Part shown: positions 2,438-62,539 of the stretch, piece by piece
How the letters are laid out: each line of letters opens with the position of its first letter
How positions within the stretch are numbered: position 1 is the stretch's first letter
NCBI RefSeq assembly: GCF_013141825.1
Contig: NZ_RZNH01000002.1
Coordinates: 1-64,000 of the forward strand
Origin: Marinifilum caeruleilacunae
Lineage (GTDB): Bacteria; Bacteroidota; Bacteroidia; Bacteroidales; Marinifilaceae
Reading direction: 5' to 3'
DNA length: 64,000 nucleotides
Position numbers and translations under genes: made by a program
Notes under the pieces: generated by a model
Database searches by the model: none
The model's input: only the letters and a program-made list of their open reading frames with translations
Told to the model about the DNA's origin: nothing

Positions 2438-3997
2438 ATGAGAAAGAACATATCAATGGAAGATTTTAACAAAAGGGCATTTCAGGTCATTACAGATGGC
2501 AATTTGGATTACCGTCAGAAGAAACACCACCTTGCTTATATTGCAGAAAGTTCACAAGCTTATCCAGAAGTTTCGGCAGAAGCGAAAGAAGCTTTGGAGA
2601 AGAAGATTATTTGCGATTTATTTGAAGGTAATGCCCCTTACCGTCCTAGATATGTACTTCCAGATTATGCTCTAGCCATGAAAAATGGGATCGATTATCT
2701 TGAACTGGAAGCTCCAAAAGATTTCGATGAAGCCATCAACTTTTTATCGATTTTATATGTTCAGGTTCCTTCAATTACAGGATATTCGGTTTATCTTGGC
2801 AATATCGATCAACTCTTACTGGATTATGTAGGTGATTTATCGGAAGAGGAAATCTATAAAAAGATGAAGTTATTCTGGAGATTTATTGATCGTACTTTGC
2901 CTGATGCATTTGTACATATTAATATTGGTCCTGAGGACAATATCATCGCAAGAGTAATTCTGAGAATTGAAAGAGAATTGAAGCAGGTTGTTCCTAACCT
3001 TACGCTTAAATACGATCCTGAAATCAGCTCGGACGAACTTCTTTTGGAAGCCACAAAAACGGTATTCGAAGTGGCCAAGCCTCATATTGCCAATCATCCG
3101 ATGACAGCAGCAGATTTTAAAGGCAATTATGGTGTGGTAAGCTGCTATAACTCTCTGCCCGAAGGTGGAGGCTCGCATACCCTGGTTCGTTTAAATTTGA
3201 AAAAGATATGTGATCTGCATCAAGGAGATTTGCAGGATTTCCTATCCAATACATTGAAGAAATACTGTATAATGACACTGGATATTATCGAAGCAAGATC
3301 GAAATACCTGGTGGAAACCGTAAATTATTATGAAACAGATTTCCTGGCCAAAGAAGGAATTATTTCGCTTGAGAATTTCTCGGCCATGTTTGGTTTTTAC
3401 GGCTTGGCAGAATGCGTAAACCAGTTGATGAAAAAGAGCGGAAGTCAATCGGAATATGGGAAAGATGAAGATGCCAACCAATTGGGTCACCTGATTCTGG
3501 AGGAAATGAAAAAAATAGTTGATGCCCGTGAATTGCCTTACTGTGAAGCGAACGAAGGAAAAGCTTTCTTTCATTCACAATCGGGAATTGATATCGATAT
3601 AGAAGAAACTGCAGGGGCAAGAGTTCCCATTGGCAGTGAACCTGATATCTATTCACACATTCAGGCCGTTGCTCCACATCACCATTTGTTTACAGGTGGA
3701 ATTAGCGATATTTTCCATTTTGATGATACCATAAAAAGAAACCCTGAAGCGGTTCTTGATATTGTAAAAGGAGCATTTAAAAAAGGGATGAGAATGTTCA
3801 CCTTTAATTTATCGGACAGCGAATTTATCAGAATCACTGGATATTTGGTAAGAAGAAGCGACCTGAAAGAATTCCGCGAGGAAGGTTCACGCTATGGCAG
3901 TGCCTTATTTGCAGCCAATTCTATGGACAATGCAAATGTTGATTGTAGAGTATCGAAAAGAGTACTTTCTCATGAGCAAGTTGCAGGCAAATATTAG
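2438..3997 (+). CDS. yjjI: YjjI-family glycyl radical enzyme
   Basis: Oxygen-sensitive radical enzyme of the YjjI (DUF3029) family; its physiological substrate is not known to me. The glycyl-radical motif RITGY lies about 50 residues from the C terminus (Gly ~468 of 519), and the motif around VVSCYNSLPEGGG (Cys ~236) is a candidate thiyl-radical site. The frame is open further upstream, but the ATG at 2438 (alternative 2456) fits the family start and excludes a hydrophobic, non-family N-terminal extension. The last 26 nt overlap the gene for its activase, so the two are translationally coupled. The catalytic-cysteine assignment is inference; the radical motif and the paired activase are visible. 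Confidence 0.9.
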   Translation: MRKNISMEDFNKRAFQVITDGNLDYRQKKHHLAYIAESSQAYPEVSAEAKEALEKKIICDLFEGNAPYRPRYVLPDYALAMKNGIDYLELEAPKDFDEAINFLSILYVQVPSITGYSVYLGNIDQLLLDYVGDLSEEEIYKKMKLFWRFIDRTLPDAFVHINIGPEDNIIARVILRIERELKQVVPNLTLKYDPEISSDELLLEATKTVFEVAKPHIANHPMTAADFKGNYGVVSCYNSLPEGGGSHTLVRLNLKKICDLHQGDLQDFLSNTLKKYCIMTLDIIEARSKYLVETVNYYETDFLAKEGIISLENFSAMFGFYGLAECVNQLMKKSGSQSEYGKDEDANQLGHLILEEMKKIVDARELPYCEANEGKAFFHSQSGIDIDIEETAGARVPIGSEPDIYSHIQAVAPHHHLFTGGISDIFHFDDTIKRNPEAVLDIVKGAFKKGMRMFTFNLSDSEFIRITGYLVRRSDLKEFREEGSRYGSALFAANSMDNANVDCRVSKRVLSHEQVAGKY

Positions 3998-4829
3998 TGG
4001 AATCATTAAGTCGAGTGTAATCGACGGACCGGGAAACCGAATGGTGATTTTTTTCCAGGCTTGCAATTTAAACTGCTTGTACTGTCACAATTCACACACC
4101 ATCGGCTTGTGCAATTTGTGTGGCATTTGTGTAGATGCCTGCCCTACAAACAGCTTGCAAATCGACACCGAGAATAAACGAATCTTACACCAGGAAAACA
4201 CTTGTATGCGTTGCGATAGCTGCATCAAATCCTGTCCCGAAAACAGCAGTCCGTTCTACAAAAAGATGTCAGTAGAGGAAATCGTTTCTGAAATTCATAA
4301 AGTAAGAGATTTTATATCTGGCATTACTGTATCGGGTGGTGAAGTTATGCTGCAGGTCGATTTTTTACGGCTTCTTTTTCAAACGATCAAGTCGGATAAG
4401 GAACTAAGTCACTTATCCATCCTGATTGATTCCAATGGCAATATTGCACAGGATAAATGGGATTCTATCTTGCCTTTTACCGATGGAGTAATGCTTGATT
4501 TAAAGGCTTTTTCTCAGGAAAATCACAAAAAGATTACGGGTTATTCCAACGAAACGATTTTAGAGTCAATTCAATACCTGGATAAGAGAAAGAAACTTAA
4601 AGAGCTTCGCTTTGTTTTGGTCAAAGGCATGAACAATCATGAAGATGAGCTCAGAAAAGTATCCCAATTCATGAGCTCTGTGTCTGCTTCGGTTGGCAAA
4701 AGCATTATCAAAATGCGGAAACATGGTATCAGAGATGAGTATGCTTTTGTAGAGGAGCCCAATGCGGATGATATGGAAATGGCTCGGAACATATTTGAAG
4801 AATCAGGATTGAATGTGCTGATGATTTAA
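3972..4829 (+). CDS. yjjW: YjjW-family glycyl radical enzyme activase
   Basis: Radical SAM activase (285 residues) expected to place the glycyl radical on the adjacent YjjI. The N-terminal motif CNLNCLYC is the CX3CX2C that binds the SAM-cleaving 4Fe-4S cluster. It is followed by two ferredoxin-type clusters, CNLCGICVDACP and CMRCDSCIKSCP, as in other glycyl-radical activases that carry an inserted 2x4Fe-4S domain. SGGEVML matches the SAM-binding GGE motif. The ATG at 3972, inside the end of yjjI, is chosen because upstream in-frame residues are out-of-frame yjjI sequence. Activase and enzyme form a complete two-gene operon. Substrate remains unknown. Confidence 0.92.
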   Translation: MSKLQANISGIIKSSVIDGPGNRMVIFFQACNLNCLYCHNSHTIGLCNLCGICVDACPTNSLQIDTENKRILHQENTCMRCDSCIKSCPENSSPFYKKMSVEEIVSEIHKVRDFISGITVSGGEVMLQVDFLRLLFQTIKSDKELSHLSILIDSNGNIAQDKWDSILPFTDGVMLDLKAFSQENHKKITGYSNETILESIQYLDKRKKLKELRFVLVKGMNNHEDELRKVSQFMSSVSASVGKSIIKMRKHGIRDEYAFVEEPNADDMEMARNIFEESGLNVLMI

Positions 4830-6439: not shown

Positions 6440-8893
6440 ATGAAAAAAGCCAATAATAAGTTCATTTACAGCATTGTAATTCCAACCATTCTTGCAATCA
6501 CGATGTTTGTAATCACTTTCTATGTTATCCTTATTCCTCTATTTGAACGAAGCATGATGGATCGCAAGAAAGAGATGATACTGGAACTCACCAATGCTGC
6601 CTGGAGTGTTTTATCGGAATACCAGGAAGCCTATCACAATGGCGAAATCAGTTTGGAAGAGGCCAAAGAGAAAGCCTCGGAACATGTTGGCAAAATGAGG
6701 TATGGCAACGAACAAAAGGATTACTTCTGGATCATTACCAACAGTCCTAAAATGGTGATGCATCCCTACCGTCCTGATTTGAATGGCAGCGATCTTTCCA
6801 ATTTCTCGGACAATCATGAAAACAAGCTTTTTGTGGATGCAGCCGAACTGGTAAAGAACGAAGGAGAAGGATTTATTCAGTACTACTGGCAATGGAAGGA
6901 CGATGCCTCTAAAATATCACCAAAGCTTTCGTATGTAAAAGGGTTTTCGGAATGGAACTGGGTTATTGGAACAGGGATTTACCTGGATGATGTGAGGATG
7001 GAAATCAAGGAATTGAAAAAGACTTTGCTAAAAATTTCCTTTACCATTATCTTATTTGTTGCCTTTATTCTCTTGTATGTATTGCGTCAATCGCGAATTA
7101 TCGAAGAAAAAAGGTTAAAAGCTGAAAAGCAATTGCTTTCCTCTATACAGAAATACAAAAGCCTTGTAAATGCATCTACCGAAGGCACACTAATGGTAGT
7201 CAATAAAAAGGTAGTTTTTTCAAATACCAAATTCACACAACTTTTTGAGCACGATGAAATTATTGGATCAAAATTCTCGGAGCTTTTTCAAATGAGCTGG
7301 AATGATTTGGCTGATATGATCGAAAATCCGAAGAAAACATCCACTTTCGAAACTGAATTGGTGAATGCTCGAGCTGGATTGGAAAATGTGATCATATCGG
7401 TAACCCAGATTCAATTGTCTGGAGAAATTGGTTACATCATTGTGGCCAAGAATGTAACCGAAAAGAAGCGCATAAGACTGGATGCCAACAAAATGTCTGA
7501 AGACATTCAGCTTTCGCTACAATTGATGAATCAGCCTATTGATAACCTGATTCGAAAGAATGTTTGCTGCAATCTAAGCACTCCAATTCACGAGGCGGCC
7601 AAATTAATGACTGAACAAGAGTGCAGGTTGATCTGCATCAAAGAGAATGGACAGGTAATTGGTATTGTTACCGATACCGATTTAAGAAGCCGTGTTCTTG
7701 CTCAGGAGAAAAGTACAAATAAAGTAGTGGCAAGCATCATGTCGGCTCCTGTGGTTAGCATCAAGAAGGATGCGCTTTTATACGAAGCCATATTAAGATT
7801 CAAGCAAAGCAATGTTTCCCACCTATTAATTGAAGACAATCATGGGGAAATTATTGGGAATATCAGTAGCAGGCAGTGTCATGAAATGCAGCAAAATTCA
7901 TTGACCCACCTGATCAACCAGATTAATGAATGCAGCACGGTGGAAAGCATCAAACGCATTCACAATAAGGTTCCGATTCTAATTCAGGCTGTATTTACCA
8001 GTTCTGAGAATATCAATAGTGTTTCGCGAATTATTACCGCCATTGCCGATGCCATTACATCAAGGATTATTGAATTGGCCATTCGCGAAGTAGGTCAGGC
8101 TCCATGCGAATTTGCCTTTATTACCATGGGTAGCGAAGGACGTTCGGAACAAACTTTAAAAGCCGATCAGGACAATGCCATCATATTTGCAGAAGAGAGC
8201 GAGGACAACAAAGCCTACTTTTTAAGATTATCCGAAATTATTAATGAAAACCTACATGCAATTGGCTATTCTCGTTGTAAGGGAGATTTAATGGCTGGAA
8301 ATCCTGAATGGTGTAACTCTCTGTCGATCTGGAAAGATTACTTTTCACACTGGATCAATAATCCGGATATCCCAAATGTTTTGGATAGCTCTATTTTCCT
8401 GGATTTAAGAACTATTTATGGAGAAAATCACCTGGTGGATCAATTGTTTGAGCATGTGTATACCGAATTGGAACACAACCAGGAGTTTTACAACCAAATG
8501 GCCAAAACCGTGATTGGTGTTAAGCCTGCCATGGATAAAAAATCGGTAAACATTAAGAAATTTCTTCAACCTATTATCGGGTATTTAAGAATACATGCCT
8601 TGTACCATTCGGTGCGGGAAACCAATAGTTTGTTGCGCATGAACGAACTTATGGCATTGGGCGTACTGAGCGAGAAAAATGCCGACGAAATTGAAGCCAT
8701 GTATAATTTCCTGATGCACCTTAGATTAAAGTGGCAGGTAAATTTGATTCTCGACAACGATTGGCCCGAGAATGATGTACTTCTAAAGCATCTTACTGAG
8801 ATTGACAAGAGTACTTTTAAACGAATCGAAAAGGAAATTGCATCCCTTCAGGACGAATTGAAATCGGCATTTAAAATTTCTGAATACCAATAA
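6440..8893 (+). CDS. Cache-PAS-CBS-DUF294 sensor nucleotidyltransferase
   Basis: 817-residue membrane sensor. Order: TM helix ~9-30; periplasmic single Cache domain ~35-190 (DYFWIITNSPKMVMHPYRPD, WNWVIGTGIYLDDV); second TM ~197-217; PAS domain ~235-350; two CBS domains ~375-490 (VTDTDLR in the first); then a GlnD-like DUF294 nucleotidyltransferase with GSEGRSEQTLKADQDNAII near residue 563, followed by the DUF294 C-terminal helical domain. The G-S-E-G-R...D-x-D pattern is that of an active nucleotidyltransferase. CBS-DUF294 proteins are usually soluble; Cache and PAS modules suggest that an external small molecule, perhaps a carboxylate, controls transfer of a nucleotide to an unknown protein. 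It stands alone with no response regulator. Domain calls are firm, the target is not known. Confidence 0.9.
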   Translation: MKKANNKFIYSIVIPTILAITMFVITFYVILIPLFERSMMDRKKEMILELTNAAWSVLSEYQEAYHNGEISLEEAKEKASEHVGKMRYGNEQKDYFWIITNSPKMVMHPYRPDLNGSDLSNFSDNHENKLFVDAAELVKNEGEGFIQYYWQWKDDASKISPKLSYVKGFSEWNWVIGTGIYLDDVRMEIKELKKTLLKISFTIILFVAFILLYVLRQSRIIEEKRLKAEKQLLSSIQKYKSLVNASTEGTLMVVNKKVVFSNTKFTQLFEHDEIIGSKFSELFQMSWNDLADMIENPKKTSTFETELVNARAGLENVIISVTQIQLSGEIGYIIVAKNVTEKKRIRLDANKMSEDIQLSLQLMNQPIDNLIRKNVCCNLSTPIHEAAKLMTEQECRLICIKENGQVIGIVTDTDLRSRVLAQEKSTNKVVASIMSAPVVSIKKDALLYEAILRFKQSNVSHLLIEDNHGEIIGNISSRQCHEMQQNSLTHLINQINECSTVESIKRIHNKVPILIQAVFTSSENINSVSRIITAIADAITSRIIELAIREVGQAPCEFAFITMGSEGRSEQTLKADQDNAIIFAEESEDNKAYFLRLSEIINENLHAIGYSRCKGDLMAGNPEWCNSLSIWKDYFSHWINNPDIPNVLDSSIFLDLRTIYGENHLVDQLFEHVYTELEHNQEFYNQMAKTVIGVKPAMDKKSVNIKKFLQPIIGYLRIHALYHSVRETNSLLRMNELMALGVLSEKNADEIEAMYNFLMHLRLKWQVNLILDNDWPENDVLLKHLTEIDKSTFKRIEKEIASLQDELKSAFKISEYQ

Positions 8894-16703: not shown

Positions 16704-16831
16704 TCCAATATCCAATTTAGGCACAGGATTTTGCGGGTACGATAAAATTAGCAGACGTCCGAAATTATTGGCTTTGTCGCTATATCAGTGTTTTAGCTGC
16801 AGTTTTGAACTGTAACAAAAACATTGACACA

Positions 16832-18325
16832 ATGAGTAAAAACGAAAAGCCATCGAAATTAAATCGTAGAGATTTCTTTAAAATTGGAGGAGTTACGGCC
16901 GCAGTTGGAGCAACTGCATTAAGCTCCTTACCTGGTAAGACTGCAGCCAAAGAACTCGACAAGCGAATTGTTGATAAAATTGTCACCACTCACGACGATT
17001 TTCCTGCTGAAGTAAGATCTGACTATGTGCCACCGCGAAATTGGGACCATGTACAGGCACGTTCCTTTTTTGTAAAGGAAATTAAAGCCATTGGCGAGAC
17101 GGTAGAAGATGATATTGTTGCAGATGGACAAGCCTTTGTAGAGAAAATGAACTTTGCCTACGACAATGAAAAAGTAGGATACAACCAGGCCGATAAAGCC
17201 TTACTGGCTGGAGCCTGGGCTATGAATAACTACTCGGCAGGTCCAAGTCCGGCAGCCATTCCCAATTTTGGTGTTAACTCCTGGGAACAACGCCAGGAGA
17301 AAGCTCATTTTGCTCTTTTCGATAATGACTATGTCGTAAAAGAGAAATATCAGTTTACAAACAAACAAGAAGCGTCCAATCAAATTAAAAGAGCAGCCAA
17401 ACTTTTTGGTGCCGATTTGGTCGGGATTACCAAACGTGATAAACGATGGGATTACAGCAAATTCTTGAATCCTATTCCACCTTTATTCAGAAAGCCATTA
17501 TTGGCTCCACCCAGCAAGGAGCAAATGGAAGAGCTTCACAATTGGGGACCAGACAAGTTCGTTACCGATTGGAGCGACTTTCCTTTCGAACCCAAAACAG
17601 TAATTGTAATGGCCTTTAATATGGACTATGAAGGGATTGCCACCTCTCCGTCTTTCGTGGGAAGTGCTGCTGCAGGAGCAGGTTATTCCGAAATGGCGAA
17701 AGTTCCTTACCAGTTGGCAGTATATCTTAAAAACCTGGGATACAACGCTGTTTCGTCGGGGAACGACATGGGCTTAAGTGTTCCATACGCCATTGCTGCC
17801 GGTTTGGGCGAAGCATCACGTTTGGGACAGGCAGTGACCTATAAATTTGGTCCAAGAGTTCGATTGGCCAAAGTATACACCGATTTCGAATTTGTGGAAT
17901 ATGACAAACCTAAGTCGTTCGGTGTTATGGATTTCTGTAAAAACTGCATGCGTTGCGCCGATGCTTGTCCGACCAAAGCAATATCCTATGAAAAGGAACC
18001 TACTTTTGAACCAACTCATGATAATAAAGAGAATGCCTGGTACAATGTAAAGGGTGTGAAAAAATATCATGTAGATGCGAAAAAGTGTTTCAAACTGTGG
18101 GGCGAATTGGGCGACGATTGCGGAATGTGTATGGCCTCATGTCCATACAACAAACCTGATTTTTGGCATCACAGATTGGTGGATAGCATTACGGCTGCTA
18201 TGCCTGGGCCCGTACACGACCTGATGCGCGAAATGGACGAACTATTTGGCTATGGGAATGTAGAAGACAAGGAATCAATTAAAAAATTCTACAGCCCTGA
18301 AGGCAAAAGCTATGACGGACATTAA
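16832..18325 (+). CDS. rdhA: Reductive dehalogenase catalytic subunit
   Basis: 497 residues, the usual length for RdhA. The start at 16832 gives a Tat signal with Arg12-Arg13 (NRRDFFKIGG) and a hydrophobic stretch ending TAAK, so the folded holoenzyme is exported. The central region is the corrinoid-binding reductase domain. The C-terminal third has two 4Fe-4S motifs: CKNCMRCADACP near residue 369 and a long-spaced C(x10)CGMCMASCP near 418-438. These features define reductive dehalogenases such as PceA, which remove halide from organic substrates as terminal electron acceptors. Fe-S-only Tat proteins such as epoxyqueuosine reductase lack the long-spaced second motif and the RdhB partner. The adjacent RdhB and RdhC genes support the call. 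Substrate cannot be told from sequence. Confidence 0.93.
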   Translation: MSKNEKPSKLNRRDFFKIGGVTAAVGATALSSLPGKTAAKELDKRIVDKIVTTHDDFPAEVRSDYVPPRNWDHVQARSFFVKEIKAIGETVEDDIVADGQAFVEKMNFAYDNEKVGYNQADKALLAGAWAMNNYSAGPSPAAIPNFGVNSWEQRQEKAHFALFDNDYVVKEKYQFTNKQEASNQIKRAAKLFGADLVGITKRDKRWDYSKFLNPIPPLFRKPLLAPPSKEQMEELHNWGPDKFVTDWSDFPFEPKTVIVMAFNMDYEGIATSPSFVGSAAAGAGYSEMAKVPYQLAVYLKNLGYNAVSSGNDMGLSVPYAIAAGLGEASRLGQAVTYKFGPRVRLAKVYTDFEFVEYDKPKSFGVMDFCKNCMRCADACPTKAISYEKEPTFEPTHDNKENAWYNVKGVKKYHVDAKKCFKLWGELGDDCGMCMASCPYNKPDFWHHRLVDSITAAMPGPVHDLMREMDELFGYGNVEDKESIKKFYSPEGKSYDGH

Positions 18326-18353
18326 TGAATGATCACAATAAAAATCTAACATC

Positions 18354-18644
18354 ATGATATTTACAGGAATTGAGATACTGTTTTTCTCCTTGGGAGTGCT
18401 GAGTACACTTGCCATTGGATTGATCTATTATTACAATCAAAAATTAAAATTTTCTGTCCCTGCCTGGACAACAAGTATTCTGGGTGCTTTTCTCTTTATT
18501 TTCGGAATTGCATGGGCTTTTAGCTCTGTTCTCGAAGGAGAGCCAAGGGCTGCCAGTATGGGACTCATTGTTTTTGTGATTCCCTCTTTAATTTTGCTGC
18601 TTTTCTCAAGAAAACTGGCAATTAGAAAATCGACAGGCAAATAG
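18354..18644 (+). CDS. rdhB: Reductive dehalogenase membrane anchor
   Basis: 96 residues, three hydrophobic helices (~5-25, 36-55, 68-88). The loop between helices two and three carries AWAFSSVLEGEPRAASMGL; the W-(x)-S-x-x-E-G-E-P-x-A-A pattern is the hallmark of RdhB/PceB anchors and probably contacts the dehalogenase on the outer face of the membrane. It starts 28 nt after rdhA. Length and topology are as in known anchors. Confidence 0.93.
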   Translation: MIFTGIEILFFSLGVLSTLAIGLIYYYNQKLKFSVPAWTTSILGAFLFIFGIAWAFSSVLEGEPRAASMGLIVFVIPSLILLLFSRKLAIRKSTGK

Positions 18645-18716
18645 TTTTTGTTCATCGAGTAGCGGATTTGGGCACAGTCCAGGTCCCTACTCTTTTCATT
18701 TGGTTTACACATTTTC

Positions 18717-19844
18717 ATGAAAAAATATATCAATTGGTTGGCCTACCTGAGCCTCGCATTGGCCTACTTTTATGGTGTTATCTACAAGGAGGATTCTCAG
18801 CAAATCCAATCCGTTCATGCCATACAGGATGAGAATATCCGCTTAGGGAAAGAGCATAACGATATTTATCCTGTATACCGGAAAGATAGTCTTATGGGAT
18901 ATCTTGCTTTTGGTACATCGCAGGGATATGGTGGCCCATTGCAGGTTGCTGTTCTGACAAACACCACGGGCGAAATATTAAGTACAGAACTGATTGGCAA
19001 TTACGAAACGCCGTCCTTTGTGGCCAAGCTTTCGAACAAAAAGTATTACCAACAGTACGCAAACAAAAAATTGTTAGATCGCTTTCAGCTAAAGCAGGAT
19101 GTTGAAGCAGTATCTGGCGCGACCGTAAGTTCCTTAGCCATTGCCCATGCAGCCCGCGACGCTTCCTACAAAATTGCAAAAGATGTATTTCAGCTTCATC
19201 CTCCTGATATTGAGAAAAAATGGAGATTGACAGCAAAAGAAGGCATCATTGCCTTGATCATACTGCTGGCTTTTGTGGGCATCTACATCAAGAGCAAAAA
19301 GTTGATCTATTTGAACCTCTTTCTTGGCCTGGTATTCATTGGCTTTCTGTTTAATGCATCGCTTTCTTTAACACATTTTGGTCGCCTTACTTTAGGTTAT
19401 TTTCCTGATATCCACACCCATGTAGGCTGGTGGTTGTTACTGGCAGCCACGCTCAGTATTATTATTGTTTGGGGAAAGAATGTTTATTGCACGGCAATCT
19501 GTCCGTTCAGGGCCAGTCAAATGCTATTGCAGCAGGTATCGGGTATCAATATCAAAATGGATCAAAAAACGGCTAAAATCATGGGCTACACACCAGTTGT
19601 TTTAATCTGGCTTTCGCTGATATTGATTTTCATTTCCAAAAATCCCAGTATATCATCCTACGAACCATTTGCCATGTTGTTTTCCCTAAAAGGTGCAGGA
19701 ATTCAATGGTATATTTTACCAACAGCTTTAATTGGAGCCTTGTTCTTTTCCAATTTCTTTTGCCGATTCTTCTGTCCTGTGGGAGGAATTTTAAATTGGT
19801 TGATTGCCCGCAGGAATCAAATTAAAAAACTACTAATTAACTAG
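18717..19844 (+). CDS. rdhC: RdhC/PceC-like FMN-binding polyferredoxin membrane protein
   Basis: 375 residues. One N-terminal TM helix (~5-22), then a periplasmic FMN-binding domain whose SGAT motif (EAVSGATVSS, near residue 131) is where the FMN is covalently attached to Thr. About five further TM helices follow, with two cytoplasmic-side CX3CP motifs, CTAICP (~257) and CRFFCP (~351), as in NosR/NirI/PceC. Members are thought to pass electrons from quinol to the exported dehalogenase or to act in its maturation or regulation. It starts 72 nt after rdhB in the same operon. The full ten-residue FMN attachment context supports an active flavoprotein. Confidence 0.92.
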   Translation: MKKYINWLAYLSLALAYFYGVIYKEDSQQIQSVHAIQDENIRLGKEHNDIYPVYRKDSLMGYLAFGTSQGYGGPLQVAVLTNTTGEILSTELIGNYETPSFVAKLSNKKYYQQYANKKLLDRFQLKQDVEAVSGATVSSLAIAHAARDASYKIAKDVFQLHPPDIEKKWRLTAKEGIIALIILLAFVGIYIKSKKLIYLNLFLGLVFIGFLFNASLSLTHFGRLTLGYFPDIHTHVGWWLLLAATLSIIIVWGKNVYCTAICPFRASQMLLQQVSGINIKMDQKTAKIMGYTPVVLIWLSLILIFISKNPSISSYEPFAMLFSLKGAGIQWYILPTALIGALFFSNFFCRFFCPVGGILNWLIARRNQIKKLLIN

Positions 19845-19851
19845 ATATAAA

Positions 19852-19956
19852 ATGCTTAAACAGATAAAAGTAAGCAAGTCCACACTTGCCGGATTGGCTC
19901 TTTATGCCATGTGCTTATTGTCAATCCTGCTCTACCTGGCCGACAATTTTAAATGA
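19852..19956 (+). CDS. 34-residue membrane microprotein of the rdh operon
   Basis: A short frame beginning ATG 7 nt after the rdhC stop and coding for 34 residues: a basic N terminus (MLKQIKVSKST), one hydrophobic helix (LAGLALYAMCLLSILLYLA) and a short polar end. The tight spacing, clear single-helix layout and position before the operon terminator argue that it is real. I know no family for it. A small subunit stabilising the RdhB/RdhC membrane complex is the obvious guess. Confidence 0.65.
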   Translation: MLKQIKVSKSTLAGLALYAMCLLSILLYLADNFK

Positions 19957-20123: not shown

Positions 20124-20163
20124 CAAAAAAAGGTTTTACCATCATAATTGGTAAAACCTTTTT
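20124..20163 (+). terminator. Strong hairpin terminator after the rdh operon
   Basis: Perfect 15-bp inverted repeat AAAAAGGTTTTACCA / TGGTAAAACCTTTTT with a seven-base loop. The A and T runs make it work on both strands, so it also serves the convergent SEC-C gene. Confidence 0.92.
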
Positions 20164-20183: not shown

Positions 20184-21014
20184 TTAAGCCATATTTTTCA
20201 AACAACAGTTCTTGTATTTTTTCCCTGAACCACAAGGACATGCATCGTTCCTGTTTATTTTCACATCCTGCTGTATTGGCGATTGTGCCGAAGCAAACAT
20301 CTGCTCCATATGCTGGTAGTGATTCTTCCATTCAGGATCTCTCATCTCGCAAAAGGCGACACCTTGTTCGTAATCGCTAACTCTTCCTTCCATCACATCG
20401 ATATAATACTGTAACTCAATGGCCGTATGCTTTCCTTCGAACTTTGGCAGGATCTCTTTGAATTTCTTCAATGTATCTTCTCTTTGCAAATCCCCCAATA
20501 CACGAATGTAATGATCTACCCAATGAAAGTTTGCCTCATCTAGCATGGAATGAATTCTCTCGAACTGATGATCCTTTGCATAATACAAAGCTTCAAAAGA
20601 GAAAATATATGGTGTTTTGTTTTCCTTTTTAATGTTCTCCTCAATAAAGAACAGAACCTTTTCAATGAATGATTCAGGAAACTTCTTTGCCAACAATCCA
20701 ACCAAATAGACAGCTTGCTCATTCATCAAATCCCAATCTTCTTCGGTCGTAAACATCTCCAGCAATGGTTCAAATAAATCTTCGCTCAGATGCTTTTCGG
20801 CCACAACAGCATACCACAAAGGTGCCGGCAACATGATTCTGTGTTTCTCGGAATAATAGACCTCACCCTTATAAGCATTTGTTAAGGCATATACTAGTTT
20901 CTTGCTCAATTCTTCACTGCTCTCCTGCTCTCTCAAAAAATCGATTGCCTCGTAAGGTATTCCTGTTGCTTTTGTATCTAAAATTTCAAAAGCTTGTTGT
21001 ATTGTACGGATCAT
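20184..21014 (-). CDS. SEC-C metal-binding motif protein
   Basis: 276 residues from the ATG at 21014. The first ~245 are all-helical, HEAT/ARM-like, resembling the DUF1186-type region found with SEC-C motifs. The last ~20 hold the zinc-binding SEC-C motif CPCGSGKKYKNCC, also found at the end of SecA, where it binds SecB and ribosomes. No SecA motor domain is present. Probably a cytosolic adaptor; function unknown. Confidence 0.85.
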   Translation of the reverse strand: MIRTIQQAFEILDTKATGIPYEAIDFLREQESSEELSKKLVYALTNAYKGEVYYSEKHRIMLPAPLWYAVVAEKHLSEDLFEPLLEMFTTEEDWDLMNEQAVYLVGLLAKKFPESFIEKVLFFIEENIKKENKTPYIFSFEALYYAKDHQFERIHSMLDEANFHWVDHYIRVLGDLQREDTLKKFKEILPKFEGKHTAIELQYYIDVMEGRVSDYEQGVAFCEMRDPEWKNHYQHMEQMFASAQSPIQQDVKINRNDACPCGSGKKYKNCCLKNMA

Positions 21015-21045
21015 ATTATCATGTTTAGGCCGCAAAGATAAGGAA

Positions 21046-57871: not shown

Positions 57872-60800
57872 ATGAAGAAATTTTACCTTCTGGGCCTACT
57901 CGCCATCTGTATTTCTACAACCGCTTTTTCCCAAAGAACAATTCATGTACCTACCGATTATTCAAGCATACAGGCCGCTTTAAGCAATGCCTCGAGTAAT
58001 GATACCGTTCTGGTGCAAACAGGTGTGTATGAAGAAAATATCATCTGGCCCGAAACAAATGGAATCAAACTCCTAAGTGCAGGCGATAGTACCAATACCA
58101 TAATCGATGGTACAGAATCAGACAGGGTGATCAACATCATTCATGCTGCTATCGACACCAATACAGTTATTAAAGGTTTCAGAATTCGAAACGGACTTAC
58201 ATCTCAAAAAGGTGGTGGAATTCAAATTACCAATGGAAGTGTGAAGTTGCATTCTGTGCTAATCGAAAATTGTGAAGCCCAGGAAATGGCCGGGGGTATT
58301 TATTCCGAAGGCAATCTTGTCCTTATTAACTCAGCCATTCTTTCCAATCAATCCGATTACATTGGTGGTATACGATGCCAGGCCGATGTTTGCAGGCTTC
58401 ACAATGTAATGGTGGCCAACAACAATTCAACGGGCGACAATCGAAACATTATCAATGCCGGGGGTGTTTCCATTACTTCTCCCGATTATAGCATCTCGAA
58501 TTGTACCTTCAAAAATAACCGCTCAGAATCATATGGTGGTGGTGCTTCGGTCGATGGAAACGGATCGGTAACAGGCAGTGAATTCACCGAAAATTCCGCC
58601 AAATACCATTATGGTGCCGCCCTTTCGGTAAAAGGAACAAGTGTAGTTGATGATGTGAACGTCCATAATAATGGAAACTCTATTAGTGGAACATTGTTTT
58701 TCATGCAGGGGAACATTATCCTGAAAAACTCAGTCGTAAAAGACAATGAATCCATTGGCGTAAGAGTGGAGTATTACGGAGAATTTACCATTAAAAACAC
58801 CGAGTTTTCGGGGCAAAAAACTGCCATCAAAACCGGTAGAGACAATAATACCGGAAAACTAATAGTGGACAGTTGTACCATCAGCAGAGATCAGGATGAA
58901 ATGCCTTCTGAAGGCAATTTTGGTGCATCTGAAGGAATTAGCCTAACAAAATATGCAGGAATTATTGAGTTAAGCAATTCCACCATTAAAGGTTTCACTC
59001 ATGGAATTTTTGGCAATCATGCCGATAACAGCATTAACATACATAAGTCCATTTTTACGGCCAACGAAAATGGAATCAATAACAAATCCATCAACACCAC
59101 AATTGATTCCACCATATTTTCGATTAACGATGTGGCCATATTAAACCAGGCGCAGGGAATGTTGCAGGTAAACGAATCGGATTTTCTCAATAATAATTTT
59201 GGAATCAACAGCTTGAACGATGGCAATGTGTTGAATGCCGAAAACAACTATTGGGGAGATGATTCTGGACCTTATAACGATATCAATCATCCATCCGGGA
59301 AAGGTGATTCGATTACCGTATATGTTGATGCTTCTCCTTTTAGAACCACAAAGGTATTTGGTGATTATCGTGCTCCTATCTTTCTAAAATCTCTCGAGAA
59401 TAATAAGGACCAAAGCATTACCCTAAAGTGGGAGGATGACAATAGAAGCGATATCGACCATATTGATATTTACTATAAATGTGTAGACTCCTTGCAATGG
59501 AGTAAAAAAACAGTTCCTAATGATGACCAAATTGATACACTTCAAAATTTAATCCCCTATGTGACTTATGAAGTAAAGGTAAAATCTGTTGATCTATCCG
59601 GCAACGAATCGGAGGATTCCAATACCTTACTTGCTTATACCGATGATGACAGAACCTCTTTCTTTGTTCCTGCCGATTTTGCCACCATTCAAAGAGCTCT
59701 AAATTGTTGTAGTCCTAACGATACGGTTTTTGTGAGTCCGGGTACTTATAAAGAATCTCTTACCTGGCCCAATGTAGCCGATGTCCATCTCATCGGAGAC
59801 AGCATTAAGCCTAATACTACCATTATAGATGGGGAGCAGAAAAACAGGTGTATCTCCATTGTGGGAAATAGTATTATCAGTGCAAGCATCAACGGTTTTA
59901 AACTGATTAACGGATATGATCCCGAAAAAGGAGGAGGTATTTTTATCGAAGCCTATTACATTGTGAACCTCTCCAATTGTATTTTAAGCAATAACAAATC
60001 CAAAATCGGTGCTGCCATTTGCAGCTACGACAACAGTTCTAACGGAATTATCAACATCAACAGGCTTTTGATTCACAGCAATGAATCAGAGCAATCGGGT
60101 GCAGCCATGTATTGTTTAAGAGATGATGTAAATATCAACAGCAGTACAATTGCCAATAACACAAGCCTGAACAGCGATGCCTCCAAATCGGGGAATGGTG
60201 GTGTATTTGCCAGTGGTACAGTTAAAATTAACAATTCGATTGTCTGGAATCACGGATCGCCAAATATGATCAATTATACGGGTTATAATATGTATGGTGC
60301 AACAATACAGGTGAACTATTCCTGCCTGAAATATGGCGATACCTTTAACAATGGAGCCGTTACCGGGAATACGAGCCACAACAATGGCATCATTATCGAT
60401 CCGCTTTTTGCCGATACCTTAAGTCACGATTATACCTTACAATCCAATTCACCTTGTATCGATTCAGGTAATCCTGATATGATATCCGATTTGTGTTCCA
60501 GAATTGATATGGGATATTGGGAAAGTCCAACAGGAAATCGAATCAATCATTCCGAAACTTCCATCTCTATCTGTAATGGAGACAGCCTACTATGGAAAGG
60601 CAAGTACTATTCAGAGGAAGGGCAGTATTTTTATGAAAAAGAATCGGACCTATCCTGCGATAGCATTTATGAATTGAACCTGAGCGTAAATCCGACCTAC
60701 CTGATCGAGGAAAAGAAATCCATTTGTGATGGGGATAGCCTTTTGTGGCAAAACACCTATTATTCTATAGCAGGAACCTACAGTGTAGAACTTACTACGG

Positions 60801-62539
60801 ACTTGGGTTGCGACAGTATCCGCCAGCTCGAGTTGGTGGTGAATCCAGTATTCGAACAGACCGAAGAGAGGCAAATTTGCCAGGGAGATAGCCTGCTGTG
60901 GAGAAACTCCTATTACAAACAAAGCGGTACTTATGCTGACCAACTTAGCAGTTCAACGGGTTGCGATAGTACTTATTACCTGAATTTGGTGGTAAAACCA
61001 ACATATCATGAAACAATTGAAGCCAGCATTTGCCAGGGTGAAAATTATATGCTTGGCAGTCAGACTTTAACAGAATCGGGAGAATACACCGAGGTATTTG
61101 AATCGGATTTACAGTGTGATTCCATTGTAACACTGCAGCTCAACGTTCATCCAATCTACCAGGAAAACATAGAAGCTACCATTTGCCAGGGTGATGAATA
61201 TCTATTTGGTTCCCAGATATTAAGCGAAGCAGGTGAATATACTGAGACATTCCTATCGCAGCACAATTGTGATTCGGTAGTGAACCTAAATCTGAAGGTA
61301 AACCCAACTTATCAAAGCCAATTGGAAGCCAGTATTTGCCAGGGCGAAAGTTATATTTTTGGCTCTCAAACACTCACCCAAGTCGGAGAATACACAGAAG
61401 TTCTGCAATCGATTAATGGATGTGATTCCATAGTGATCCTGAATCTTACCGTAAATGCAGAATACCACGAACAAGAAGATGTTAAAATCTGCCAGGGAGA
61501 AGCGTATGTATGGGGCACTCAAACTTTAACAGAATCAGGAGAATACACAGAAGTTTTCAAATCGGTTCACAATTGCGATTCTATTGTGACCTTAAGACTG
61601 GAAGTTGGGCATGCCCATAATACCGAAACGGAAGTGGAGATTTGCCAGGGTGACACATATGTTTTCGGCACTCAAAATCTTAGCGAGGCCGGCGTTTACA
61701 CAGAGGTTTTCAAATCGGCGCACAATTGTGATTCCACCGTTATCTTACATTTGGCTGTCAAGCCGATTTACCTGGAAGAACTGGAAGCCACCATTTGCCA
61801 GGGCGATGAATACATTTTGGGCACACAAACGCTCACCCAAACGGGTGTATACACTGAGGTGTTCCAATCGGTGCACGCTTGCGATTCTACTGTAATTTTG
61901 CGACTGAATGTAATTCCTGCCTATCATGAAGAGGCAGAAATTAACATTTGCCAGGGCGAAGAGTATATTTTGGGGTCGCAAACCCTTACCGAATCGGGAG
62001 AATATACAGAAGTGTTTCAAACTCATTCTGGATGCGACTCTACCAAAACTGTAATTTTAACTGTTCAATCGGTTGACACAAGAGTAGAACAAGATGGATC
62101 TACCCTAAAAGCTGTGGCTTCGGATGCTACTTACCAATGGGTAAAATGTGACGATGAATTTTCTGAAATCGAGTCGGAAACCAATGCTTCCTTCACGCCA
62201 GTGGAAGATGGTGATTATGCTGTAATTGTGAATCAAAATGAATGCAGCGACAGGTCCGATTGTTATTCAATCATCATTACCTCGGTATTCGATGAGTTCA
62301 AAAAAGATTGGAACATTTACCCTAATCCTGTAAAGCAAAATTTACACATAAATCTGGATAGAGCTTACGCTGATATACAAGTGAATGTTTACAATTCATC
62401 AGGGCAAGTTGTTATGTCAAAACAAAGCCATACTTCGAAACAATTGATGCTGGAAGTAAACGACTTAGCAAACGGTTTATATATTTTAAAAATTGATGCT
62501 GATAACAAGCATGCAACTTATAAGTTTATTAAGAAGTAA
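57872..62539 (+). CDS. Giant T9SS-secreted beta-helix protein with ten 51-residue repeats
   Basis: 1555 residues. Signal peptide (KKFYLLGLLAICISTTAFS). Two right-handed parallel beta-helix domains of the NosD/pectate-lyase-like kind (~25-500 and ~595-890, each starting VPxDyxtIQxAL...NDTV) flank a fibronectin-III-like domain (~506-591). From residue ~898 to ~1408 lie ten tandem repeats of exactly 51 residues, each with ICQG...YT...CDS and two Cys, which may form one disulfide per unit. An Ig-like domain (~1405-1475) and the T9SS sorting domain (NIYPNPVKQNLHI...GLYILKI) end the protein. It should be exported and anchored at the outer surface as an adhesin or carbohydrate-binding stalk. Confidence 0.93.
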   Translation: MKKFYLLGLLAICISTTAFSQRTIHVPTDYSSIQAALSNASSNDTVLVQTGVYEENIIWPETNGIKLLSAGDSTNTIIDGTESDRVINIIHAAIDTNTVIKGFRIRNGLTSQKGGGIQITNGSVKLHSVLIENCEAQEMAGGIYSEGNLVLINSAILSNQSDYIGGIRCQADVCRLHNVMVANNNSTGDNRNIINAGGVSITSPDYSISNCTFKNNRSESYGGGASVDGNGSVTGSEFTENSAKYHYGAALSVKGTSVVDDVNVHNNGNSISGTLFFMQGNIILKNSVVKDNESIGVRVEYYGEFTIKNTEFSGQKTAIKTGRDNNTGKLIVDSCTISRDQDEMPSEGNFGASEGISLTKYAGIIELSNSTIKGFTHGIFGNHADNSINIHKSIFTANENGINNKSINTTIDSTIFSINDVAILNQAQGMLQVNESDFLNNNFGINSLNDGNVLNAENNYWGDDSGPYNDINHPSGKGDSITVYVDASPFRTTKVFGDYRAPIFLKSLENNKDQSITLKWEDDNRSDIDHIDIYYKCVDSLQWSKKTVPNDDQIDTLQNLIPYVTYEVKVKSVDLSGNESEDSNTLLAYTDDDRTSFFVPADFATIQRALNCCSPNDTVFVSPGTYKESLTWPNVADVHLIGDSIKPNTTIIDGEQKNRCISIVGNSIISASINGFKLINGYDPEKGGGIFIEAYYIVNLSNCILSNNKSKIGAAICSYDNSSNGIININRLLIHSNESEQSGAAMYCLRDDVNINSSTIANNTSLNSDASKSGNGGVFASGTVKINNSIVWNHGSPNMINYTGYNMYGATIQVNYSCLKYGDTFNNGAVTGNTSHNNGIIIDPLFADTLSHDYTLQSNSPCIDSGNPDMISDLCSRIDMGYWESPTGNRINHSETSISICNGDSLLWKGKYYSEEGQYFYEKESDLSCDSIYELNLSVNPTYLIEEKKSICDGDSLLWQNTYYSIAGTYSVELTTDLGCDSIRQLELVVNPVFEQTEERQICQGDSLLWRNSYYKQSGTYADQLSSSTGCDSTYYLNLVVKPTYHETIEASICQGENYMLGSQTLTESGEYTEVFESDLQCDSIVTLQLNVHPIYQENIEATICQGDEYLFGSQILSEAGEYTETFLSQHNCDSVVNLNLKVNPTYQSQLEASICQGESYIFGSQTLTQVGEYTEVLQSINGCDSIVILNLTVNAEYHEQEDVKICQGEAYVWGTQTLTESGEYTEVFKSVHNCDSIVTLRLEVGHAHNTETEVEICQGDTYVFGTQNLSEAGVYTEVFKSAHNCDSTVILHLAVKPIYLEELEATICQGDEYILGTQTLTQTGVYTEVFQSVHACDSTVILRLNVIPAYHEEAEINICQGEEYILGSQTLTESGEYTEVFQTHSGCDSTKTVILTVQSVDTRVEQDGSTLKAVASDATYQWVKCDDEFSEIESETNASFTPVEDGDYAVIVNQNECSDRSDCYSIIITSVFDEFKKDWNIYPNPVKQNLHINLDRAYADIQVNVYNSSGQVVMSKQSHTSKQLMLEVNDLANGLYILKIDADNKHATYKFIKK
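60569..62098 (+). repeat. Ten tandem 153-bp coding repeats
   Basis: The I-C codon pair of each unit starts at 60569, 60722, 60875, 61028, 61181, 61334, 61487, 61640, 61793 and 61946, an exact 153-nt step with no indel. The first three units (DSLLW type) differ from the last seven (YTEVF type), which suggests two rounds of duplication. Confidence 0.92.

Follow-up and report, generated by a model that had tools for sequence, protein, structure and literature searches.

The first 64,000 nucleotides of contig NZ_RZNH01000002.1 of Marinifilum caeruleilacunae (hereafter, the window) carry five genes in a row on the + strand, namely araC, rdhA, rdhB, rdhC and a 34-amino-acid (aa) open reading frame (ORF). 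We confirmed the presence of a complete rdhABC operon of the respiratory reductive dehalogenase (RDase) type, and we propose, with a probability of about 0.75, that it encodes an inducible menaquinol:organohalide oxidoreductase; from these genes we infer halogen-dependent respiration. An earlier note on this DNA had described such an operon at 16832-19956 in a Bacteroidetes-like genome. Both points stood, since its elements are present at or beside those coordinates (Table 1) and the host is a Marinifilum-like member of the Bacteroidota, with relatives of the operon in six Marinifilum genomes. The end of that span, 19956, is the stop codon of the 34-aa ORF, which the earlier note lacked, as it also lacked a conserved block upstream of rdhA, a hairpin between rdhB and rdhC, and a second, hybrid RDase of the genome.

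Products of the rdhABC operon and cofactor supply

RdhA scored 214.1 bits (E 4e-63) against TIGR02486, whose curated cut-off is 160.35. Its best solved relative was Desulfitobacterium PceA (DhPceA; 8q4h, E 1.1e-78), followed by Sulfurospirillum PceA (SmPceA; 4uqu, 4.5e-48), a catabolic RdhA (1.2e-19) and QueG (~1e-4). Because of the TIGR02486 score and the solved PceA matches, rdhA is no chance ORF. Two Pfam models gave scores under their cut-offs, i.e., 14.0 bits against 24.3 for PF13486 (Dehalogenase) and 22.5 bits, just short of 22.7, for TAT_signal PF10518. The twin-arginine (Tat) signal and both 4Fe-4S motifs reported earlier were nonetheless found in the sequence, as RRDFFK at residues 12-17, C369-X2-C372-X2-C375-X3-C379P and C430-X2-C433-X3-C437P. 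The gene was taken to start at the ATG at 16832, with a product of 497 aa; an alternative, mechanically called TTG start at 16805 would overlap the predicted -7 element.

Over the aligned parts, RdhA is ~40% identical to DhPceA and 35% identical to SmPceA. In the alignment (numbering per PMC10624902), the catalytic Tyr/Arg pair of DhPceA (Y285, R344) is kept, as are the menaquinone-pocket residues K441, H447, D469 and Y474, of which the last three have been proposed to transfer protons from menaquinol in DhPceA (PMC10624902). Eight of the 16 compared DhPceA residues are changed (H395, N454, S479, S486, W487, A498, R499 and A511), and at five of these eight positions the window protein has the letter of SmPceA; among the five changed pocket residues (S486, W487, A498, R499, A511), this holds for three. 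N454 and S479, near the DhPceA corrinoid, are replaced by V and G. By its motifs and residues, RdhA is a respiratory-type RDase, for which cobamide binding and halide release are predicted. The level of identity to the two PceA enzymes and the V and G near the corrinoid leave room for a non-halogen substrate, the Rdh fold having been recruited for another reductive cobamide reaction. We regard this as quite improbable, given the retained Tyr/Arg pair, the induction of a related Marinifilaceae rdhA by 2,6-dibromophenol (PMC12908670) and the Phenol_MetA_deg protein encoded in sister operons, both of which are described below.

RdhB has three hydrophobic segments and the loop E61-G-E63-P-R-A-A, and a homologue of its gene follows rdhA in all 15 homologous loci. 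This small protein, with three transmembrane (TM) segments, an EXE loop and a gene adjoining rdhA, has the features of the membrane anchor that had been claimed for it. RdhC, previously described as a PceC-like membrane protein with flavin mononucleotide (FMN) and CX3CP motifs, matched FMN_bind (1.3e-11) and Fer4_5 (1.9e-7), and its Thr136 and both CX3CP motifs are invariant in 12 aligned homologues. Five of the six expected TM segments passed the threshold, and the structure model was poor (pLDDT 67). RdhC fits the definition of PceC, i.e., an FMN domain with the Thr, TM helices, two CX3CP motifs and no C-terminal ferredoxin motifs; the published RdhC definition already counts Bacteroidetes among the phyla with RdhC (PMC5928378).

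The genome has corrinoid synthesis genes, as the earlier reading required. Contig C83 encodes CbiJ-CbiD, CbiG-CbiF, CbiE-CbiT, CbiH-CbiC, CbiL, CbiA and CbiK together with a BtuC/BtuD-like transporter and a TonB receptor, and contig C1 encodes CobD, CbiB, CobU, two CobT, CobS and CobC. CbiJ, CbiG, CbiC, CobD, CobU and the transporter scored under the NCBIfam cut-offs, and the other cobamide genes passed the curated ones; the cobamide is likely self-made. Additionally, CobQ (contig C196), TatC and MenA are each over their own cut-off, and the genome has two ApbE-type flavin transferases. The cobT genes form a tandem pair at L107:7040-9160 on contig C1 (424 and 447 bits; cut-off 319), which may allow different lower-ligand bases.

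Phylogeny and distribution of RdhA

The RdhA tree (IQ-TREE, 56 rows) included as references one QueG, fragments of three characterised proteins in the PDB and five RDases carried by named plasmids. The window RdhA grouped with sequences from six Marinifilum, Labilibacter, Carboxylicivirga, two metagenome-assembled genomes (MAGs) and one genome of the host family (12 rows, support 100/99). Next outward came four Marinifilaceae sequences with 51-56% identity, hereafter the sister clade (16 rows, 100/99), and an RdhB-RdhA fusion that belongs to a different family extended the clade to 17 rows (100/99). Separate clades were formed by the hybrid-type sequences (24 rows, 100/99) and by the four catabolic enzymes (100/100), both within a branch of 33 rows, and QueG lay far outside on a very long branch. 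A fork without resolved order joins the 17-row clade, the 33-row branch, a Dehalococcoides row, the SmPceA pair together with one Bacteroidota row, and DhPceA. The tree thus puts the window RdhA outside the QueG, catabolic and hybrid groups, but does not fix its place relative to DhPceA, SmPceA and Dehalococcoides.

These results bear on what else RdhA might be. QueG identity was ruled out by TIGR02486, the solved relatives and the tree, in agreement with a score of 32 bits against the QueG model, which requires 200; the true QueG of this genome is encoded elsewhere (348.7 bits). The Tat signal and the separate RdhB ruled out a hybrid RDase. The earlier note had also allowed for halide-removing catabolism, in which RdhA would yield halogen-free carbon sources, as NpRdhA or BhbA do. 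The marine setting agrees with this, catabolic rdhA being said to be mostly marine (PMC6797604). Nevertheless, catabolic identity was rejected on the basis of the tree and the residue comparison, and the reading has a very small probability in view of the Tat signal, RdhB, the quinol-site residues, the lack of a fused reductase and the separate catabolic clade; NpRdhA has Gly at the position of the quinol-pocket His (the compared fragment ends before the Asp and Tyr).

A scan of GTDB genomes with short exact patterns, which finds close relatives only, gave ten related loci. Six are from named Marinifilum and 92-93% identical, and the other four (70-83%) are from Labilibacter, Carboxylicivirga, a Lutibacter-labelled MAG and a Bacteroidales MAG; M. 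flexuosum DSM 21950, M. fragile JCM 15579 and M. breve JC075 carry an rdhA homologue. Of the 57 genomes in the host's GTDB family, 18 gave an RdhA match at E 1e-20. Eleven of them, the window's included, have a Tat-type rdhA (54-100% identity), and the best matches of the other seven are 34-39% identical over part of the protein; six of these seven proteins show the hybrid pattern, in which RRxF is missing and two or three TM segments stand at the N-terminus, and the remaining one lacks both RRxF and such segments. Within the genus bin of the host, the Tat-type gene is present in five of six genomes, the sixth being 80% complete. Over the host order, TIGR02486 was matched at E 1e-20 in 43 of 295 genomes and over its cut-off in 22. 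The 14 records of plasmid RDases contained no close relative, all being <60% identical.

The window genome itself encodes one Tat-type RDase, one hybrid, the true QueG and one weak match. The hybrid (L002:811-2184, contig C196) has 457 aa, three N-terminal TM segments and no Tat signal, and is 34% identical to the window RdhA over 195 aa. At L052:6157-7860 (genome G131), the natural RdhB-RdhA fusion is followed by rdhC; its RdhB-like domain is 41% identical to the window RdhB over 78 aa and has an EGV loop, and its RdhA part is 43% identical to that of the window. Because this fusion is sister to the Tat-type clade of the window, apart from the other hybrids, RdhB-RdhA fusion may have arisen more than once. 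In the copy of the Lutibacter-labelled MAG (L013:6001-9136), rdhA and rdhC each have one in-frame stop, and the rdhC of M. fragile (L010:8040-9162) has a frameshift; these are either draft-assembly errors or decay.

A small gene that we labelled GreA-like (it has no Pfam match) and a SEC-C gene flank the operon in five of the seven Marinifilum loci, including the window; of the other two, L005 ends too early and L009 has no GreA-like match. The same pair flanks three of the four sister-clade loci. A recent foreign island in Marinifilum is unsupported, as the operon sits between the same flanks in most loci. The pair was not seen in Labilibacter, Carboxylicivirga, the two MAGs, L101 and L105, and transfer of the operon between genera is therefore likely.

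The regulator, its candidate operator, the hairpin and the microprotein

As had been stated earlier, a gene for a membrane-embedded AraC protein lies directly upstream of rdhA, in place of CprK/RdhK or a two-component system. The protein matched HTH_18 (PF12833, 51.2 bits, 1.6e-13) and HTH_AraC (PF00165, 32.3 bits, 1e-7), both over cut-off. Its AlphaFold2 model (mean pLDDT 83, pTM 0.58) has seven membrane helices (3-21, 29-52, 62-86, 93-114, 119-148, 163-191 and 197-221) followed by the helix-turn-helix (HTH) domain. The NCBIfam model Btr was the second-best match, at 28 bits against a cut-off of 900. A Foldseek search with the model gave no match at E 1e-3 or better; sensible matches were confined to its HTH domain (best E 1.3e-3), and matches to G-protein-coupled receptors (E 0.15 or worse) were discounted as mere seven-helix likeness.

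An araC homologue is located upstream of rdhA on the same strand in 15 of 15 homologous loci, with one intervening gene in three of them. The order araC-rdhA-rdhB-rdhC-orf34 is kept in the ten GTDB loci (L005 ends after rdhB), with different outer flanks outside Marinifilum, and in five further loci of the family. In three of these five, all among the four of the sister clade, a gene for a Phenol_MetA_deg outer-membrane protein stands between araC and rdhA. This family, together with the induction by bromophenol, points to an aromatic substrate.

A 31-bp block upstream of rdhA was compared with five loci whose flanks cannot be aligned; the best matches were 24, 19, 25, 23 and 24 of 31 positions, scores reached by 0, 9, 0, 0 and 0 of 1000 shuffles, respectively. 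The four sister-clade loci gave 19, 19, 17 and 17 (45, 48, 323 and 292 of 1000 shuffles). A reading of the block as missing from the sister clade was rejected, since the re-aligned core is present in three of its four loci. The refined core is ACGTC..RAA.T..TTRG..TTGTCG. The Bacteroidota -7 consensus is TAnnTTTG, and a -7-like element with at most two mismatches lies exactly 20 bp downstream of the core in 12 of 16 loci, a set that includes seven close relatives within Marinifilum. The core mismatches were equalled by none of 300 shuffles in 12 of 16 loci, figures that are optimistic because the pattern was drawn from the sequences it scores. The 5.27 Mb genome has a single exact copy of the core, between araC and rdhA, and a longer pattern also matches once; three more core matches with 3 mismatches are no excess over the eight of the reversed-pattern control.

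The simplest reading is that AraC is a dedicated regulator of one promoter, with the core as its predicted operator. Alternatively, AraC and the block might be unrelated to rdh, the block being the core promoter only or the site of a regulator encoded elsewhere. The link between AraC and the operator is drawn from sequence, the direct repeat within the block is weak and the core was scored on its own source sequences, all of which would suit this alternative. We consider it unlikely, since araC stays near rdh in all 15 loci despite their differing outer flanks, and the block is longer than a core promoter and has its single exact genomic site between araC and rdhA.

Compensating changes preserve a 16-pair stem in the rdhB-rdhC interval of six Marinifilum loci. 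Eight of the 16 pairs are changed on both sides and 96.3% of the cells are paired, values that none of 500 shuffles reached, in an alignment of five distinct rows in which the window supplies most of the changes. By a pair-types measure, 6 of 500 shuffles were as high, slid controls gave 0-1 pairs, and RNAalifold reported seven covarying pairs. The folding z-score, calculated for the whole intergenic stretch against 100 simple shuffles, was -4.4 in the window and -3.5 to -5.2 over the six Marinifilum loci. L012, L013 and L101 have unlike hairpins with z of -2.8 to -4.1, and L014 has a z of -2.3.

Counterparts of the 34-aa ORF, of 31-33 aa (48 in L012), follow rdhC in all 14 loci that reach that far. 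The ratio of nonsynonymous to synonymous differences (pN/pS) was 0.11-0.36 over 15 pairs of the six Marinifilum copies, 0.25-0.47 over six sister-clade pairs and 0.26-0.60 over ten distant pairs, as would be expected under selection at the protein level, with small counts per pair. A profile of 12 copies gave 11 matches at E <1e-12 in the 57 family genomes, exactly in the 11 with a Tat-type rdhA; the gene is close to rdhA in ten of them and on another contig in G333. As the profile contains members of some of the scanned genomes, their matches were expected, and related genomes are not independent. The informative part is the lack of a strong match in the 46 other genomes (next best E 0.01), including seven that have only another RDase. 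The microprotein ORF and the rdhC end share 8 nt in three of the four loci of the sister clade, and beside the RdhB-RdhA fusion, a 47-aa ORF with one hydrophobic stretch also overlaps the rdhC end, which suggests that the microprotein belongs to RdhC. A similar small ORF was not seen after the rdhC of L054. Literature searches found nothing that joins reductive dehalogenases with the term 'microprotein', although other wording is possible.

Table 1. Features of the araC-rdhABC region, in window positions
Feature	Coordinates	Strand	Evidence
araC: membrane-embedded AraC-family regulator, 362 aa	15615..16703	+	HTH_18, HTH_AraC, AlphaFold2 model, synteny
Conserved upstream element, candidate AraC operator	16739..16779	+	core 16755-16779 ACGTCCGAAATTATTGGCTTTGTCG; interlocus conservation
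Candidate -7 element CAGTTTTG	16800..16807	+	exactly 20 bp 3' of operator core
rdhA: Tat-type corrinoid/2x[4Fe-4S] reductive dehalogenase catalytic subunit	16832..18325	+	TIGR02486, PceA matches, residues, phylogeny
rdhB: three-TM membrane anchor, EGEPRAA loop	18354..18644	+	hydropathy, motif, synteny
Intercistronic RNA stem-loop, rdhB-rdhC	18656..18693	+	folding z-score, covariation
rdhC: PceC/NosR-like membrane flavoprotein	18717..19844	+	FMN_bind, Fer4_5, two CX3CP motifs
34-aa single-TM microprotein, proposed RdhC-associated subunit	19852..19956	+	synteny, pN/pS, profile search
Intrinsic-terminator-like hairpin 3' of operon	20127..20163	+	15-pair stem with T tail

The terminator claimed by the earlier note corresponds to a terminator-like hairpin with a T tail, but it lies beyond the span to which it had been assigned. 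It is possibly shared between the operon and the convergent SEC-C gene (20184-21035). A scan for such sites found seven, barely over the 5.2 in shuffles, and this one has the longest stem. The window had no Rfam match at gathering thresholds, and a PHROGs search with four flanking proteins found nothing relevant to the operon.

Elsewhere in the window, a YjjI-like glycyl radical enzyme gene (PF11230, 681 bits) overlaps a radical SAM activase-like gene at 2441-4829. Positions 6440-8893 encode a Cache-sensor protein that also has CBS and DUF294 nucleotidyltransferase domains, which is an unusual combination for a sensor. The 1555-aa protein encoded at 57872-62539 has a run of similar repeats, in which the letters ICQG and CDS occur, and a sorting tail for Por (type IX) secretion.

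Proposed function and comparison with known systems

A respiratory RDase in Marinifilum has already been predicted in print, and our main claim is not new in this respect. RDases were predicted in five of six Ancylomarina genomes and, as respiratory RDases, in all six Marinifilum genomes, and both genera were called candidate organohalide-respiring bacteria (PMC12908670, ISME J 2026). In the same study, a 2,6-dibromophenol consortium from Aarhus Bay contained a Marinifilaceae bin, bin.4, with one rdhAB and an upstream 'Btr' regulator, and its RDase gene was up ~1650-fold within 30 min of 2,6-dibromophenol. The bin.4 primers 734F/864R align with the window rdhA at positions 734-753 (2 mismatches in 20) and 845-864 (5 in 20), and at the same positions in nine of ten relatives, with 1-6 and 4-6 mismatches (L014 is shifted by 9 nt; the positions of L012 were counted from the aligned start, not from its own ATG). 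The same primers have 8 mismatches to the hybrid gene, and the bin.3 primers have at least 7 to the window gene. The bin.4 gene is here taken as a very close relative of the window rdhA. What is apparently new is the one-helix microprotein, the seven-TM AraC with its upstream block, and the covarying rdhB-rdhC hairpin.

Based on these observations, RdhA would fold with a cobamide and two [4Fe-4S] clusters, be exported by Tat and be anchored by RdhB on the outer face of the inner membrane. Menaquinol, bound between the C-terminal helices of RdhA and RdhB, would supply electrons that reach the cobamide by way of the two clusters, and the cobamide would strip the halogen from an organohalide. The most likely substrate is a natural aromatic of the bromophenol type. 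RdhC, with its covalent FMN and CX3CP motifs, may act as a low-abundance partner in electron transfer or maturation, with the 34-aa one-helix protein as its small membrane subunit. The seven-TM AraC would sense the organohalide at the membrane and, from an operator next to the -33 region, activate a single promoter, and the hairpin may hold rdhAB mRNA in excess over rdhC.

Alternatively, fermenting cells could use the same menaquinol-fed RdhABC as an electron sink or for detoxification, conserving little or no energy. Only the physiological role separates this from the proposed respiration, and the confidences of the two overlap. The genus Marinifilum has been described as facultatively anaerobic, facilitated fermentation has been listed as a role of membrane RDases (PMC6797604), and the single Tat-type gene per genome suggests a side activity. 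Such a role is nevertheless the less probable of the two and appears doubtful to us, because the quinol-pocket residues, the anchor and the P-side export correspond to the respiratory arrangement of PceA2B2, and a dedicated regulator and promoter suggest an acceptor that is used.

Several points weigh against an inducible menaquinol:organohalide oxidoreductase operon as proposed here. RdhB had no Pfam or NCBIfam match above cut-off, the microprotein is without family-model support, and no PceT-type Tat chaperone was recognised between 15615 and 21035. All four sister-clade RdhB (L102, L103, L104 and L105) read EGVPRAA, with the second glutamate replaced, and the EXE motif of the proposed proton path is thus not general in the wider group. 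A further five Bacteroidota RDases of the Tat type (99/100) join the hybrid and catabolic enzymes in the 33-row branch (85/94); the Tat type is therefore not one clade. The operator core is weak in L011, L012, L014 and L105 (equalled by 16, 147, 11 and 291 of 300 shuffles), and taken by itself the 20-bp direct repeat lacks significance, as 28 of 500 shuffles were equally good. The sister clade and L011 lack the rdhB-rdhC hairpin and have no room for it. The primer mismatches show homology, not identity, with bin.4, whose study used a mixed culture in which other bins also had RDases (PMC12908670), and our literature searches found no report of activity, growth or halide release for a Marinifilum. 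The EGVPRAA operons offer a natural test of the EXE proton path.

More tentatively, the locus could be a module of the Bacteroidota's own, with a one-component seven-TM AraC receptor that detects organohalides in or at the membrane and controls one promoter of the genome, and a fourth structural subunit, a single helix of 31-34 aa, that acts together with RdhC. If so, a hairpin between rdhB and rdhC in two phyla would be a recurrent device that sets the RdhAB:RdhC ratio. Detection of halogenated compounds by a seven-TM AraC protein would itself be new. The microprotein bears on the long-standing question of RdhC function. RDase genes have been counted in 112 Bacteroidota genomes, and no corresponding isolate was characterised as organohalide-respiring (PMC12090745); the cultured Marinifilum strains with rdhA make organohalide respiration testable in pure culture.

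Among known systems, pceABCT of Desulfitobacterium hafniense TCE1 and Dehalobacter restrictus, which encodes the PceA2B2 menaquinol:organohalide oxidoreductase, shares with the window the A-B-C order, a Tat RdhA in which the catalytic Tyr/Arg pair and four residues of the quinol pocket agree (PMC10624902), a 3-TM RdhB with EXE, and an RdhC with a covalent-FMN site and CX3CP (PMC10624902, PMC5928378). It also has a predicted hairpin at the same place between B and C, which was proposed, for one of two strains, as the cause of the excess of pceAB over pceC transcript (PMC8905343). In contrast, the window RdhA is only ~40% identical, no pceT was seen in its operon, and the 7-TM AraC regulator, the extra microprotein and the Bacteroidota-type promoter set the window operon apart from pceABCT. 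The bin.4 RDase resembles that of the window in family, rdhAB, the upstream 'Btr' regulator, Tat and FeS motifs and primer positions (PMC12908670), whereas its sequence differs, as the primers show; the passages of that account covered here mention no seven-TM nature, operator, microprotein or hairpin.

The hybrid TM-RDases of Marinilabiliales (Atashgahi 2019, PMC6797604) share genus and RdhA core with the window enzyme, and the window genome has one of them. Unlike the window RdhA, they have N-terminal TM helices in place of the Tat signal and separate RdhB, and they form a separate clade. Finally, RdhK/CprK (CRP/FNR), two-component and MarR regulators of rdh genes are likewise local factors encoded beside rdh, which is preceded by a short conserved element (PMC12090745, PMC7062800), whereas in the window an AraC-type HTH is fused to a 7-TM membrane domain.

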